From Candidatus Gordonibacter avicola (GTDB lineage Bacteria; Actinomycetota; Coriobacteriia; Coriobacteriales; Eggerthellaceae): a DNA stretch of 64,000 nt. The notes under the pieces are model-generated. The model saw only the letters and a program-made list of their open reading frames with translations. It made no database searches and was not told the DNA's origin. Positions 44,418 to 49,118 of the stretch are shown here, in pieces (position 1 is the stretch's first letter; each line of letters begins with the position of its first letter). The translations under genes were made by a program, and so were the position numbers. Location: contig DXGM01000013.1 of assembly GCA_019113915.1 (NCBI GenBank), positions 62,001-126,000 on the forward strand, given 5' to 3'.

Positions 44418-44476
44418 TAATGTGCTGGACATCCTGCTCCCGCTTGCCCCCCCATTCCCTCATTTAGTCGTTCATA

Positions 44477-44522
44477 ACAACTATAAGACTTGCATTATTA
44501 CTAGACTAAGTCTTATAGTTGT
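44477..44522. promoter_or_regulatory. Perfect 15-bp inverted repeat upstream of the arsM-like operon
   Basis: ACAACTATAAGACTT at 44477-44491 and AAGTCTTATAGTTGT at 44508-44522, 16 bases apart, 46 bases before the start codon. An operator, for example for an ArsR-like repressor encoded elsewhere, or a leader hairpin. Confidence 0.65.
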
Positions 44523-44568
44523 ATAGGTCGCATAAAAGAATGCGGTGCGAACGAAAGGGAGGCTTGTC

Positions 44569-45666
44569 ATGGACTATTCTGCTTACTATCGTAAAGCCAC
44601 TTCGGAAGGGTACCAGGCGTACTATGATGTCGTCGCTCAGGCTGGGGGGATTGACCCGCAGGCGACGGCGCGGACGCGTAACGCGGTTGACGCCGTGCCT
44701 GGTGAGGCCAAGGACAAGCTGTTCAACGTGGCCGCCGAGATCAAGAATACCTTCCACGAGTTCGGCGCTCCGTTGCCGCCGCTTCTCGAGGGATGCACGG
44801 TGGTGGATCTCTGCTGCGGGTCGGGGCGGGATACCTACCTGGCGGCGCAACTGGTGGGGCCTGGCGGTAGAGTCATCGGCGTGGAATCTAACGAGGCGCG
44901 CCTTGGCATCGCACGCAAGTACCTCGACAAGGAAATGAAGCAGTTTGGCTTCGCGGAGGCCAATGTGGAGTTGGTGCACGGCGTGCCCGAGGACCTGTCC
45001 TTTATCCCCGACGACACGGTTGACGTGGTCATTTCCAACTGTACGTTCAACCTCTCGCCCGACAAGGCGGCCTACATTGCCGAGGTTAAGCGCGTGCTGA
45101 AGCCCCAGGGCGAGTGGTACTTTACCGACGTGTTCACCGACCGCCGCATCCCGCAGGCAACCTCAAACATCATCGAAAACGTGGCTCTGCGCCTCGGCGG
45201 CGCGCTCTTCGTGGAGGACTTCCGCCGCATGGCTCAAAGCCTCGGCTTCCACGACCCGCGCTACGTCATCACGCGCCAAACGCCGCTGACCGATGCTGAG
45301 GCCGCGCGCTTCCCCGGCATCGCATTCGCCACCATCACCTGCCGCCTTTTGAACTCCGAACTCACGTCGGACCATTGCGAAGACTACGGCGAAGAGATCA
45401 TCTACGACGGCTCACTGCCCGACTACCCTGAGTTTTTCCTGTTCGACAAGGACATCAAGTTCCCCGCCGGCAAGCCGTGCCACGTGTGCGACAACGTGTC
45501 GGTGCTGGGTCTCGAGGGCTGCCGTTATGCGAAAGTCATCACGGTGAAGGGCAACCGCGAGGTGCATTACGGCGACATCCACGGCGACCAGATTATCAAG
45601 ACAGCCCCCGACTGGGAGGGCATCGTGGACGAAGACGACCAGCCCCTCATGGTGAGCTGCTGCTAG
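44569..45666 (+). CDS. Atypical ArsM-like SAM-dependent methyltransferase
   Basis: A 365-residue Rossmann methyltransferase of ArsM type. The SAM motif is DLCCGSGRD, and VISNCTFNLSP carries the conserved As(III)-binding cysteine (C174 of CmArsM). The other canonical cysteines are lost: no N-terminal CC pair, EFGAPLPP instead of GCGSPIPP, and LRLGGAL instead of ECxxGAL. New cysteines appear in the SAM motif, in CHVCDN and in the terminal SCC. The ATG at 44569 follows GAAAGGGAGG. It heads an operon with a COG0523 GTPase and an ArsM-ArsS fusion. Arsenite methylation cannot be assumed; the substrate may be a different thiophilic element or an arsenic intermediate. Confidence 0.82.
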   Translation: MDYSAYYRKATSEGYQAYYDVVAQAGGIDPQATARTRNAVDAVPGEAKDKLFNVAAEIKNTFHEFGAPLPPLLEGCTVVDLCCGSGRDTYLAAQLVGPGGRVIGVESNEARLGIARKYLDKEMKQFGFAEANVELVHGVPEDLSFIPDDTVDVVISNCTFNLSPDKAAYIAEVKRVLKPQGEWYFTDVFTDRRIPQATSNIIENVALRLGGALFVEDFRRMAQSLGFHDPRYVITRQTPLTDAEAARFPGIAFATITCRLLNSELTSDHCEDYGEEIIYDGSLPDYPEFFLFDKDIKFPAGKPCHVCDNVSVLGLEGCRYAKVITVKGNREVHYGDIHGDQIIKTAPDWEGIVDEDDQPLMVSCC

Positions 45667-45744
45667 CAGGCACTGCGGCGAAAAGGTAGACGAAGGCGGG
45701 CGGGCCAGATGGGTTCCGTCCGCCCTCTCGTGAAAGGTACGAAT

Positions 45745-46833
45745 ATGGACAAGATCAGATTTATGGTGGTGAGCGGGTTTCTGGGCGCCGGCAAAACCAC
45801 CACGATGATAGCCCTGGCTGAGCACATGAACAAAACCTACGGCGAGACGGCTATCATCGCCAACGACCTGGGCGCGAACCTCGTGGACACCAACCTTACC
45901 CAAACGTCGGGCTGCACGGTGGCTGAAATTGCCTCGGGCTGCATCTGCTATCAGATGGACAACACCATCGACCAAATCCGTCGGCTGCGCGACAAGGACG
46001 GCGCCGTGTTCGTCATGTCGGACATCCCCGGCTGCGGCGTGGGCGCGCTCGACCACGTGTACCACCGCCTGGCCGAAGACTGCGCCGACGAATTCACGCT
46101 GTCGCCGTTCACCGTGGTGGTAGACCCGGAGCGGCTGCGCATGATCATGCCGGAGCGCGCCGACATCAACCTGCCCGAAGAGCTGGTATATCTGCTGAAG
46201 CTACAGCTGGAAGAGGCTGACCTCGTTGTGCTGAACAAGGCTGACCTGCTTGAACCCACCGACATCGAGCGCTACGTCGACTTCCTCAAAACCGCCTGCC
46301 CGGACATTCCGGTCATCGTTATTTCGGCACTTAAGCGGACGGGCATTGACGAGTTGGCGGCGTTTATCACCACGCACGAAACCCAGTTGAAGAACTTCTC
46401 CGTGCGTAACAATAAGGAATTCGAAGATGCCGAGGCGAAACTCACCTGGTACAACCGCCGCCTGTACCTCAAGACGAACGACGGCAACAAGATTGACTGC
46501 AACGCGGTGGTGGAGGACCTCATTGAGGGCATTCGCATGGGCTTCATTGAGCGCAAGCGCAATGTGCCACACCTGAAAACGTTCGCCACCTCGGGCAACG
46601 GCGACTTCAACAAGGCATCGCTCATCGGCGTGGACTACGACGTGGAATATGCGCAGCAACTGTTGCGGCCGCACAAGAACCTGCGCATGATTATCAACGC
46701 GCGCGCCGTGTGTGAGGCGCGACCGCTCGCACGGCTTATGGATGATGCGCTGGATGAAGTATGCGAGAAGTACGGTCTGGACTGCCAGGTGTTCTTTACG
46801 GAATGCTTTGGAATGGCGGACGAAGGACGATAG
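45745..46833 (+). CDS. CobW/COG0523-family G3E GTPase
   Basis: A 362-residue P-loop GTPase. Walker A is SGFLGAGKTTT near residues 9-19, a CxC metal motif is in ASGCICYQ, and the G4 motif VLNKADL is near residue 160. COG0523 proteins are metallochaperones or cofactor-insertion GTPases for Zn, Co, Fe or nitrile hydratase. The ATG at 45745 follows GTGAAAGG. Placed between two ArsM-domain genes, it may deliver a metal or cofactor to one of them or to the radical SAM partner; this is unusual and unproven. Confidence 0.87.
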   Translation: MDKIRFMVVSGFLGAGKTTTMIALAEHMNKTYGETAIIANDLGANLVDTNLTQTSGCTVAEIASGCICYQMDNTIDQIRRLRDKDGAVFVMSDIPGCGVGALDHVYHRLAEDCADEFTLSPFTVVVDPERLRMIMPERADINLPEELVYLLKLQLEEADLVVLNKADLLEPTDIERYVDFLKTACPDIPVIVISALKRTGIDELAAFITTHETQLKNFSVRNNKEFEDAEAKLTWYNRRLYLKTNDGNKIDCNAVVEDLIEGIRMGFIERKRNVPHLKTFATSGNGDFNKASLIGVDYDVEYAQQLLRPHKNLRMIINARAVCEARPLARLMDDALDEVCEKYGLDCQVFFTECFGMADEGR

Positions 46834-46845
46834 GACCTGCGGGGT

Positions 46846-46969
46846 GAGGCCTGAAGTGGGCGGGAGGGGCCTCGTGCTCAAACAGTCCTCGCTCGGTGGA
46901 ACAGTCCGCTGGACTGTTCCATTCGCTGCGGAACTGCGCGCGAGACCCCTCCCGCCCACTTCAGGCCTC
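46846..46969. repeat. Nested inverted repeat between the GTPase and ArsM-ArsS genes
   Basis: Outer 32-base arms (46846-46877 and 46938-46969; GAGGCCTGAAGTGGGCGGGA outward part) pair with a few mismatches. At the centre GGAACAGTCC-GCT-GGACTGTTCC (46898-46920) is a perfect hairpin. The whole could fold as one long stem with an inner stem, acting as a terminator, processing site or mobile mini-element. Confidence 0.75.
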
Positions 46970-47060
46970 TAGGCATGTCCAATCACCAAAAATGAGGGGG
47001 GGGGTTCAACCTGTGAGGGGTTGGCGGTTAGATCGTTGGGGGAGGAAGAGGGAGGTCGAC

Positions 47061-49118
47061 ATGGGGTTTGATGAGGGTCGGGATATTCGGGAGCTGGTGC
47101 GGGAGTATTATGGGGAGGTGCTGCAAGGCAGTGATGACCTAAAGACGGATGCGTGTTGTTGTACTTCGCATACGCCGCCGAAGTATGTTCTTGATGTCAT
47201 GAATGAGATAGATGACGAGATTATGGCGCATTTCTACGGGTGTGGGTCGCCTATTCCGCCGGCGCTTGAGGGGGCGACCGTACTCGATTTGGGGTGCGGG
47301 ACGGGGCGCGATGTGTATATCTGCTCGAAGTTGGTGGGCCCGTCCGGGCGTGTCATTGGGGTGGATATGACTGAGCAGCAGCTCGCGTTCGCGCGTCAGC
47401 ATGAGGCTGCGCAGATGGCGCGGTTTGGGTTCGAGCGCTCCAACGTGGAATTCCATTGCGGGTTCATTGAGGATTTGGCCGCGCTTGGCATTGCAGACGA
47501 GTCGGTGGATGTGGTCATATCCAACTGCGTCATCAACCTTTCTCCCTTCAAAGACCAGGTGTTTAAGGAAATCTGCCGCGTGTTGAAGCCCGGCGGCGAG
47601 CTGTACTTCTCGGACATCTTCTCCGACCGCCGTGTGCCGCCGAAGTTCTATGACGACCCGGTGCTGCGCGGCGAATGCCTGTCGGGTGCACTCTATATCG
47701 AGGACTTCCGGCGCATCTTGGCGAAGCATGGCATCGCTGCGTTCTATGACGTGGAGACCGAGCCATTGCACGTGGGCGATTTTCAGATTGAGACGAAGCT
47801 GGGCTGCATCGGCTTCGCTTCGCATACGGTGCGCGCCGTCAAGTGTGATGGCTTGGAGGACCGCGAGGAAAACTACGGCCAGACGGCCACGTACCTGGGC
47901 ACCCTGCCCGAAAACGCGCGCTACTTCGACTTGACCGAAGACGTGCGCCTTATCAAAGGGCGGCCGGTGGCGGTGAGCGGCAACATGGCTGCGCTGCTGC
48001 GGACCTCGCGCTATGCGCCGCACTTCACGGTGACGGGCGACACGGCGCATCACGTGGGCGCCTACGACTACGGCTCAGCCCAGGAGGCGCTTGAACTCAG
48101 GCGCGGCAAGCGGCACTTCGGGCTCGCCGACTTGGAGCAGGCGTGCGATGACTTAGGCATTGAGCCTTTCGCCGAGCGCGTGCACGATAAGGAGTTGCTG
48201 CGCAGCGCGCCCAACCTCACAACCATGCAGGTCAACGTGGGGTATGGCTGCAATCTGGCCTGTAGTCACTGCTTCTTGGAAAGCGGCCCCGCGCGCACCG
48301 AGGTCATGGAGCGCGCCACGATGGAGGCGGTGCTTGCGGCCTTCGAAACGGGCGGCTTCCGCACGCTTGACATCACCGGCGGCTCGCCCGAGATGAACCC
48401 CCATCTGGAATGGTTCGTGCGCGAAGCGGCGGCGCGGGCAGACAAGGTTATTGTGCGCAGCAACCTGACCATTCTTGATGACCCGGCGTACCGGCACTTC
48501 ATGCAGGTGTACGCCGACAACAAGGTGCACCTGGTCACCTCGCTGCCGTACTTCAACGAACAAGGCTGCGACCTACAGCGCGGCCGCCAGGTGTTCGATC
48601 GCGTGATCAAAGTGCTGCGCAAGCTGAACGCACTCGGCTATGGCGTGAACCCTGACCTCGTCATCGACGTGGCCTACAACGTGTCCGGCCCCTTCCTGCC
48701 GCCTGACCAGCGCGAACTGGAGGAATTCTACGCCTTCGAATTGGAGCGCGAGCAGCACGTGAAGTTTAACAACCTCTACGCCTTCAACAACTATGCCCTC
48801 GGGCGCTTTGCGCACCAGCTGAAGCACGAGGGGAAGTTTGACTTCTACCTGGACTTACTCTCTGAAAACTATAACGCGGCGGTGGTTGCACGCATGATGT
48901 GTCGCACGCAGGTGAACGTCGACTTCGACGGGCGGCTGTACGACTGCGAGGTCAACCACGTGTTGGGCCTGCCGCTCGACGGACCCAGCACCATCCACGA
49001 CCTGGTGGATAAGCCGCTGGACGTGCGCACCATTGCCACGAACCCCATCTGTTACAGCTGTGCCGCCGGCTGCGGCAGCTCCTGCGGCGGCAGCCTCATG
49101 GAAAAGTACGGGGAGTGA
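47061..49118 (+). CDS. ArsM-ArsS fusion: arsenite methyltransferase plus radical SAM domain
   Basis: A 685-residue two-domain protein. The N-terminal half is a canonical ArsM: DACCCTS, GCGSPIPP, DLGCGTGRD, VISNCVINLSP and GECLSGAL, so all four arsenic-site cysteines are present. From about residue 385 it is an ArsS-type (DUF3641) radical SAM protein: GYGCNLACSHC gives the CxxxCxxC SAM cluster, and late cysteines (CRTQVN, YDCEVN, CYSCAAGCGSSC) suit auxiliary clusters. ArsS transfers the adenosyl group in arsenosugar synthesis after ArsM dimethylates arsenic. The ATG at 47061 follows GAGGAAGAGGGAGG. The fusion suggests direct channelling of a methylated arsenical. Confidence 0.87.
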   Translation: MGFDEGRDIRELVREYYGEVLQGSDDLKTDACCCTSHTPPKYVLDVMNEIDDEIMAHFYGCGSPIPPALEGATVLDLGCGTGRDVYICSKLVGPSGRVIGVDMTEQQLAFARQHEAAQMARFGFERSNVEFHCGFIEDLAALGIADESVDVVISNCVINLSPFKDQVFKEICRVLKPGGELYFSDIFSDRRVPPKFYDDPVLRGECLSGALYIEDFRRILAKHGIAAFYDVETEPLHVGDFQIETKLGCIGFASHTVRAVKCDGLEDREENYGQTATYLGTLPENARYFDLTEDVRLIKGRPVAVSGNMAALLRTSRYAPHFTVTGDTAHHVGAYDYGSAQEALELRRGKRHFGLADLEQACDDLGIEPFAERVHDKELLRSAPNLTTMQVNVGYGCNLACSHCFLESGPARTEVMERATMEAVLAAFETGGFRTLDITGGSPEMNPHLEWFVREAAARADKVIVRSNLTILDDPAYRHFMQVYADNKVHLVTSLPYFNEQGCDLQRGRQVFDRVIKVLRKLNALGYGVNPDLVIDVAYNVSGPFLPPDQRELEEFYAFELEREQHVKFNNLYAFNNYALGRFAHQLKHEGKFDFYLDLLSENYNAAVVARMMCRTQVNVDFDGRLYDCEVNHVLGLPLDGPSTIHDLVDKPLDVRTIATNPICYSCAAGCGSSCGGSLMEKYGE

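Follow-up and report, generated by a model that had tools for sequence, protein, structure and literature searches.

The closest described counterpart of the locus analysed here is the ArsM/ArsS pathway to arsenosugar precursors of Synechocystis, in which SsArsS, a radical S-adenosylmethionine (SAM) enzyme of the family TIGR04167, works together with SsArsM (PMC8552651); a radical SAM enzyme has also been reported to adenosylate arsenic (PMC12159101). The locus consists of three genes, P1, P2 and P3, lying on one strand (+) at 44569-49118 of a 64,000-nt stretch of a Gordonibacter genome (the window, whose numbering is used for all positions). The P3 protein has the same two domains and the same signature residues as the Synechocystis pair, but here the two domains are fused and are accompanied by a GTPase (P2), and a Cys occupies, in this and the other fusions, the position at which some stand-alone ArsS have selenocysteine (Sec). 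A degenerate ArsM (P1) is also present in Gordonibacter and in many of its relatives.

Other known systems share parts of this design. The arsinothricin cluster arsQML of Burkholderia gladioli likewise combines an ArsM with a radical SAM enzyme that forms a C-As bond (PMC8552651), but the radical SAM domain of P3 matches ArsS (TIGR04167) and not ArsL, no ArsQ transporter was seen at the locus, and arsQML has no GTPase. The clusters of TrsS (NF045646) contain a radical SAM protein and an ArsM-like methyltransferase, with a member of the same GTPase family (47-60% identity) alongside; however, TrsS is a Tes-related radical SAM protein, not an ArsS, and there is no ArsM-ArsS fusion there. With the COG0523/G3E GTPases (YjiA, HypB, UreG, MeaB, ZigA), P2 has in common the G domain fold, the motifs and the CxC, and it differs from them by a Tyr in place of the third Cys of CxCC, by a C-terminal domain that falls in no assigned family and by its partner, either ArsM-ArsS or TrsS. 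The original prediction, made from the DNA letters of the window, had placed the GTPase and the second ArsM-like protein outside the published arsenosugar pathway, and this is supported. While the pathway chemistry is already known, the association with a GTPase, the fusion itself and the distribution of ArsM cysteines over two proteins (split ArsM) appear to be undescribed: we did not find them in the literature searched, which excluded most subscription journals. In the same literature nothing specific was found on the C-terminal cysteines of ArsM, on COG0523 proteins and arsenic, or on gut Gordonibacter and arsenic.

The fusion protein and its GTPase partner

The P3 gene occupies 47061-49118 and encodes an ArsM-ArsS fusion of 685 aa. 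The ArsM domain (residues 1-345, 47061-48095, +) was delimited by alignment and by its relatives in the Protein Data Bank (PDB), residues 8-338 matching the arsenite methyltransferases CrArsM and CmArsM (E 5e-89). Against the arsenite methyltransferase model NF008823, with the whole 685-aa fusion scored, P3 reached 189 bits, i.e. below the cut-off of 263. The ArsS radical SAM domain (residues 385-685 plus the stop codon, 48213-49118, +) was placed by alignment and by TIGR04167, which residues 385-679 match with 354.2 bits (cut-off 300; model positions 6-303). The full As(III)-binding set is held by the ArsM domain: C32/C34, C61, C156 and C206 correspond to C44, C72, C174 and C224 of CmArsM (numbering and roles are what we take to be general knowledge of CmArsM, the equivalences being set by our alignment). 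Among the orthologs, the equivalents of C72, C174 and C224 are found in 27/27 and that of C44 in 21 of the 24 with a letter at that position. On the ArsS side, the cluster motif C397xxxC401xxC404 and residues C614, C629, C664, C667 and C675 are invariant in the 27 orthologs. The motifs that go with the established ArsM and ArsS reactions are present in the two domains of P3, which are predicted to carry out these reactions. P3 is a single open frame kept in 27 of 101 genomes, and therefore no frameshift artefact.

The GTPase gene P2 (45745-46833, +; 362 aa) was assigned to the G3E/COG0523 group by its match to Pfam cobW (PF02492, 76 bits versus a cut-off of 20.7), by alignment and by its AlphaFold2 (AF2) model. 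The model (pLDDT 90) shows a G domain of the UreG/HypB/MeaB type (Z of about 15-16 in a fold search). The metal motif reads GCICY, with the CxC kept, and C66, C68 and Tyr69 are invariant in 34 sequences. The C-terminal domain (residues 220-362) carries a near-invariant FFTECFGM; no Pfam CobW_C match was obtained for P2 at E 0.001, and the fold search hardly covered these residues. Three genes on the same strand, a GTPase and an ArsM-ArsS fusion had been predicted, and the coordinates, the 76 bits for cobW and the 354 bits for TIGR04167 bear this out.

Conservation was followed in 101 Coriobacteriia genomes, namely the one that contains the window and 100 relatives (two of them, G001 and G003, of the same genus), all searched with the three proteins. 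A full fusion was found in 27 of them, counting one split over two contigs (G086) and one with a divergent ArsM half (G006). The GTPase was present in 27/27, in 26 of them no more than about 2 kb away from the fusion, and 27 of the 29 genomes with the GTPase had the fusion. As to the two exceptions, in G066 the GTPase adjoins TrsS, and in G052 the GTPase and an ArsS piece both run into contig ends, so that a complete pair is probably present and only broken up in the assembly. None of the 13 Coriobacteriia genomes with ArsS-type matches but no fusion had the GTPase. The search of 291 Clostridia genomes gave no fusion; six of these have a non-fused ArsM or ArsS, all without the GTPase. A separate scan led by the GTPase returned 30 Coriobacteriia loci, with the fusion alongside in 28 and P1 in 24; 24 of the 30 carry the full trio, or as much of it as the contig permits.

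The co-occurrence of fusion and GTPase corresponds to a Fisher p of 1.6e-22, a value for which genomes are counted individually and shared ancestry is ignored; trees were also used for that reason. The ArsS domains of the fusions form one clade (support 100/100). The fusion-linked GTPases belong to two clades set apart from each other, of which one is joined with the GTPases of TrsS-bearing Clostridia, and the starred branches of the GTPase tree force at least two changes. That a single clade of fusions goes with two clades of GTPases argues for a need rather than for mere co-inheritance. A lack of joint conservation in relatives, which would have counted against the original prediction, was thus not observed for the fusion and the GTPase; P1 follows less strictly: close P1 homologs (E <1e-70) were found in 16 of the 27 fusion genomes, and in none outside them. 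P1 is therefore a frequent but dispensable third member, and the core consists of the GTPase and the fusion.

Some additional observations concern the same families. One stand-alone ArsS (L038:2879-3862, -) has an in-frame TGA at its GSSxGG motif, a probable selenocysteine codon. Read-through of a TAG in ArsS was considered and rejected, as the fusion reading frames stop normally just after the motif in the loci read (the listed in-frame stops were not traced singly). The Gordonibacter genome encodes a second ArsS (L113:4701-6734, contig C46; TIGR04167, 367 bits) within a 678-aa protein, of which it makes up the C-terminal half; the N-terminal ~370 aa have no Pfam match and look, by eye, metallophosphoesterase-like. 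G044 carries a homolog (L117). In five loci (L099, L100, L101, L102 and L105) the GTPase has a DUF5714 gene adjacent or close by; four of these loci contain a clade-2 fusion and lack P1. PadR-type regulators with the motif PDPTGVYR adjoin GTPases in two phyla (L061:3-482 and L095:7475-7819).

Predicted function and proposed role of the GTPase

We read the locus as coding for the first two ArsM/ArsS (arsenosugar-type) steps in a fused form assisted by a GTPase, which would load or mature the fusion, while P1 would be an accessory; we hold this to be moderately probable. By analogy with its family, the ArsM domain of P3 would bind As(III) through the thiolates of C61, C156 and C206 and methylate it with SAM. 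The architecture suggests that the methylarsenical would then be handed, inside the same polypeptide, to the ArsS domain, which, again by analogy with its family, would add a 5'-deoxyadenosyl group to give a product of the 5'-deoxy-5'-dimethylarsinoyl-adenosine type. The C-terminal cysteines of stand-alone ArsM (CExY, VCxN and the CC tail) may serve some other handling of the arsenical, a part that the ArsS domain would replace in the fusion. P2, judging from its family and its associations, would be a dedicated partner that either delivers the metalloid or inserts a metal or cluster into the fusion. The least certain assignment is that of P1, a duplicate ArsM that has C-terminal thiols and a SAM pocket but no longer the three-thiolate site: its most likely part is that of a carrier of arsenicals or an accessory, and not that of a full As(III) methyltransferase.

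Because P3 has motifs for both established reactions, that of ArsM and that of ArsS, the product to expect by default is a 5'-deoxyadenosyl methylarsenical like those already described, and the new organoarsenic product that had been put forward is unsupported. The distribution of the fusion suggests that gut Coriobacteriia (Gordonibacter, Adlercreutzia, Ellagibacter) are able to make adenosylated organoarsenicals, compounds known from cyanobacteria and for which we found no description in gut bacteria.

A number of points weigh against this view of the locus. Arsenic is designated as the substrate by homology, since no ACR3 was found in the genome (by a genome-wide search aimed at ACR3 alone) and no arsenic-resistance gene was seen nearby; the absence of ArsR, ArsB and ArsC, already stated in the original prediction, agrees with an inspection by eye of the open reading frames of the window. 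P1 is not obligatory: 11 of the 27 genomes with a fusion lack it, and in some of those with a clade-2 fusion no partner ArsM was seen. The cargo of the GTPase may be unrelated to arsenic, because the GTPase also pairs with TrsS, the substrate of which is not known. Finally, an ArsR neighbour occurs in two loci only and could sense another thiophilic metal.

The alternative that survives best is that the GTPase is a maturation factor for a cofactor or metal (Fe-S, cobalt or another metal), without a direct role in arsenic handling, and was recruited alike to ArsM-ArsS and TrsS; we see it as a serious, if tentative, possibility. By fold and by sequence, P2 groups with UreG, HypB and MeaB, and the GTPase adjoins TrsS in several Bacillota families, in Synergistota and in one Coriobacteriia genome. 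Close homologs (47-60% identity) are found in the TrsS clusters of Clostridium ragsdalei, Synergistaceae, Peptococcaceae, Gracilibacteraceae and other Bacillota, clusters which comprise TrsS (655 and 524 bits versus 490), a DVU_1553 ligase, a DVU_1555 protein, a DVU_1556 methyltransferase and a dicluster oxidoreductase; in Synergistaceae the genes seen are those of the ligase and DVU_1555, and the contig ends ahead of any TrsS. A maturation role is also favoured by the more distant GTPases (24-31% identity), which adjoin an MtaA/URO-D-like methyltransferase, with a B12-binding protein nearby in L092. However, the GTPase is missing from 7 of the 11 Clostridia genomes that have TrsS, and non-fused ArsS was never accompanied by it in our samples, which excludes a general need of TrsS or ArsS enzymes for the GTPase. 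In addition, L069 and L091 have an ArsR/SmtB metalloregulator with a CxC motif directly beside the GTPase, which speaks for a thiophilic metal or metalloid. The Gordonibacter genome itself has no TrsS match above the NF045646 cut-off, the best one being at 290 bits on another contig. What emerges is an orphan GTPase family tied to two radical SAM/methyltransferase systems, one of them with known arsenic chemistry; this provides a testable function for a COG0523 subgroup, as well as a handle on TrsS.

P1, the partition of cysteines and further alternatives

The P1 gene (44569-45666, +) encodes a divergent ArsM paralog of 365 aa, identified by profile matches, alignment and AF2 model. It matches Pfam Methyltransf_31 (78 bits); the PDB entries closest to it are those of arsenite methyltransferases (CrArsM, 5evj, E 2e-55), and its model superimposes on CmArsM (5jx7/6cx6) with an rmsd of 2.1 A and a TM-score of 0.74 by query or 0.81-0.83 by target. 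P1 orthologs form a distinct clade (support 100/100). The SAM motif CGSGRD is kept, as are C158 (the equivalent of Cys174), C270, C307 and the C-terminal C364-C365; the equivalents of Cys44, Cys72 and Cys224 are gone. The locus had been said to encode two ArsM-type methyltransferases: this holds for the ArsM domain of P3 and is overstated for P1, for which 'ArsM-like' is the right label since it scores well below the cut-off of the arsenite methyltransferase model (117 versus 263 bits) and is without two of the three invariant As-binding cysteines.

The alignment of 24 P1, 27 P3 and 12 stand-alone ArsM sequences (from Coriobacteriia and Clostridia) reveals how the cysteines are partitioned. 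Each of the stand-alone proteins (12/12) has C44, C72, C174, C224, the C-domain pair in CExY and VCxN, and a terminal CC. In P3 the As(III)-binding cysteines are retained, and neither the C-domain pair (0/27) nor the CC tail is left; the place of the tail is taken by the ArsS domain. The P1 proteins show the reverse pattern, having lost C44, C72 and C224 (0 of 23-24 sequences; in the three-thiolate site, C72 0/23, C224 0/24 and C174 24/24), while C174, the C-domain pair and the CC tail persist in them (24/24). In seven clade-2 fusions the C-domain pair (C270/C307 in P1) is gone, as it is in P3. Maintenance of the C-terminal set without a catalytic site on more than one branch suggests that this set has a role of its own, which the partition makes directly testable. 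A degenerate ArsM-like group (L101:8065-9012, L102:756-1688, L073:13820-14917, L132, L134 and L135) has lost most of the catalytic cysteines and kept the C-domain pair (CExY, VCGN). The CC tail was rejected as a feature unique to P1, as the 12 stand-alone ArsMs end in CC too.

The partition might mean that ArsM was duplicated and split into complementary halves, the catalytic one being fused to ArsS and non-catalytic P1, with its C-terminal thiols, serving as a carrier in trans, with the GTPase as metalloid chaperone. We give little credence to this arrangement, which would, if true, amount to a GTP-driven delivery of arsenic to a biosynthetic enzyme, in principle common to TrsS systems. In its obligatory form, complementation in trans by P1 was rejected: clade-2 fusions also lack C270/C307, and for some of them no P1-like gene was found.

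It is likewise unlikely that P1 acts after ArsS, for instance by methylating an adenosylated arsenical, to give a product outside the known arsenosugars. P1 does retain its SAM motif and the Cys174 equivalent, it forms a clade of its own, and an ArsM follows the radical SAM step in arsinothricin biosynthesis (PMC8552651). However, the loss of the Cys44, Cys72 and Cys224 equivalents extends to all P1 orthologs, the locus has no further conserved biosynthetic gene, and 11 of the 27 fusion genomes dispense with P1. We find it more doubtful still that the substrate of the fusion is another metalloid, or no metalloid at all, with the ArsM/ArsS ancestry of the protein kept and its function changed. 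Such a shift would fit the lack of an arsenic-resistance context and the origin of many of the genomes, which come from the gut or rumen of animals, habitats that normally contain little arsenic; it accords poorly with the invariance in P3 of the core As(III)-binding cysteines and of the ArsS signature. As for the three genes being mere neighbours without a functional link, the region is gene-dense (molybdopterin oxidoreductases, MFS transporters) and the genes flanking the trio on either side are unrelated to it, but a co-occurrence of 27/27, adjacency in 26, gaps often of 0-8 bp or overlaps, and the pairing of the fusion with two GTPase lineages make this barely conceivable.

Flanking sequences and surroundings

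Upstream of P1, an inverted repeat (44475-44526) consists of perfect 15-bp arms, ACAACTATAAGACTT and AAGTCTTATAGTTGT, separated by a loop of 16 bp. Its inner half, TAGACTAAGTC, resembles TAGACWNNRTC-like motifs found 5' of P1 in many relatives (alignment by eye), the long perfect form being present in this strain only. The repeat is probably an operator or promoter.

The P2-P3 gap is of 227 bp here, a strain-specific length, against 8 bp in G. pamelaeae; it ranges from -31 to 424 bp in 18 relatives measured and is of 8 bp or less in seven. It contains a dispersed palindromic repeat (46838-46975; fold z-score -10.3) with nine matches in the same genome (73-100% identity), one of them being the reverse complement of the element itself. 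This repeat is possibly a small non-autonomous mobile element.

No match to a plasmid context was obtained for the locus, and no neighbour conserved across genera was found there beyond P1, P2 and P3. Genes for a PucR-type regulator, an MFS transporter and molybdopterin proteins were rejected as members of the unit, being common only to the two Gordonibacter or to a few loci. Over its whole length (1-64000), the window is rich in molybdopterin oxidoreductase genes, which come with small ferredoxin-type subunits, and in MFS transporters, and reads as a dense respiratory or xenobiotic-reduction island.

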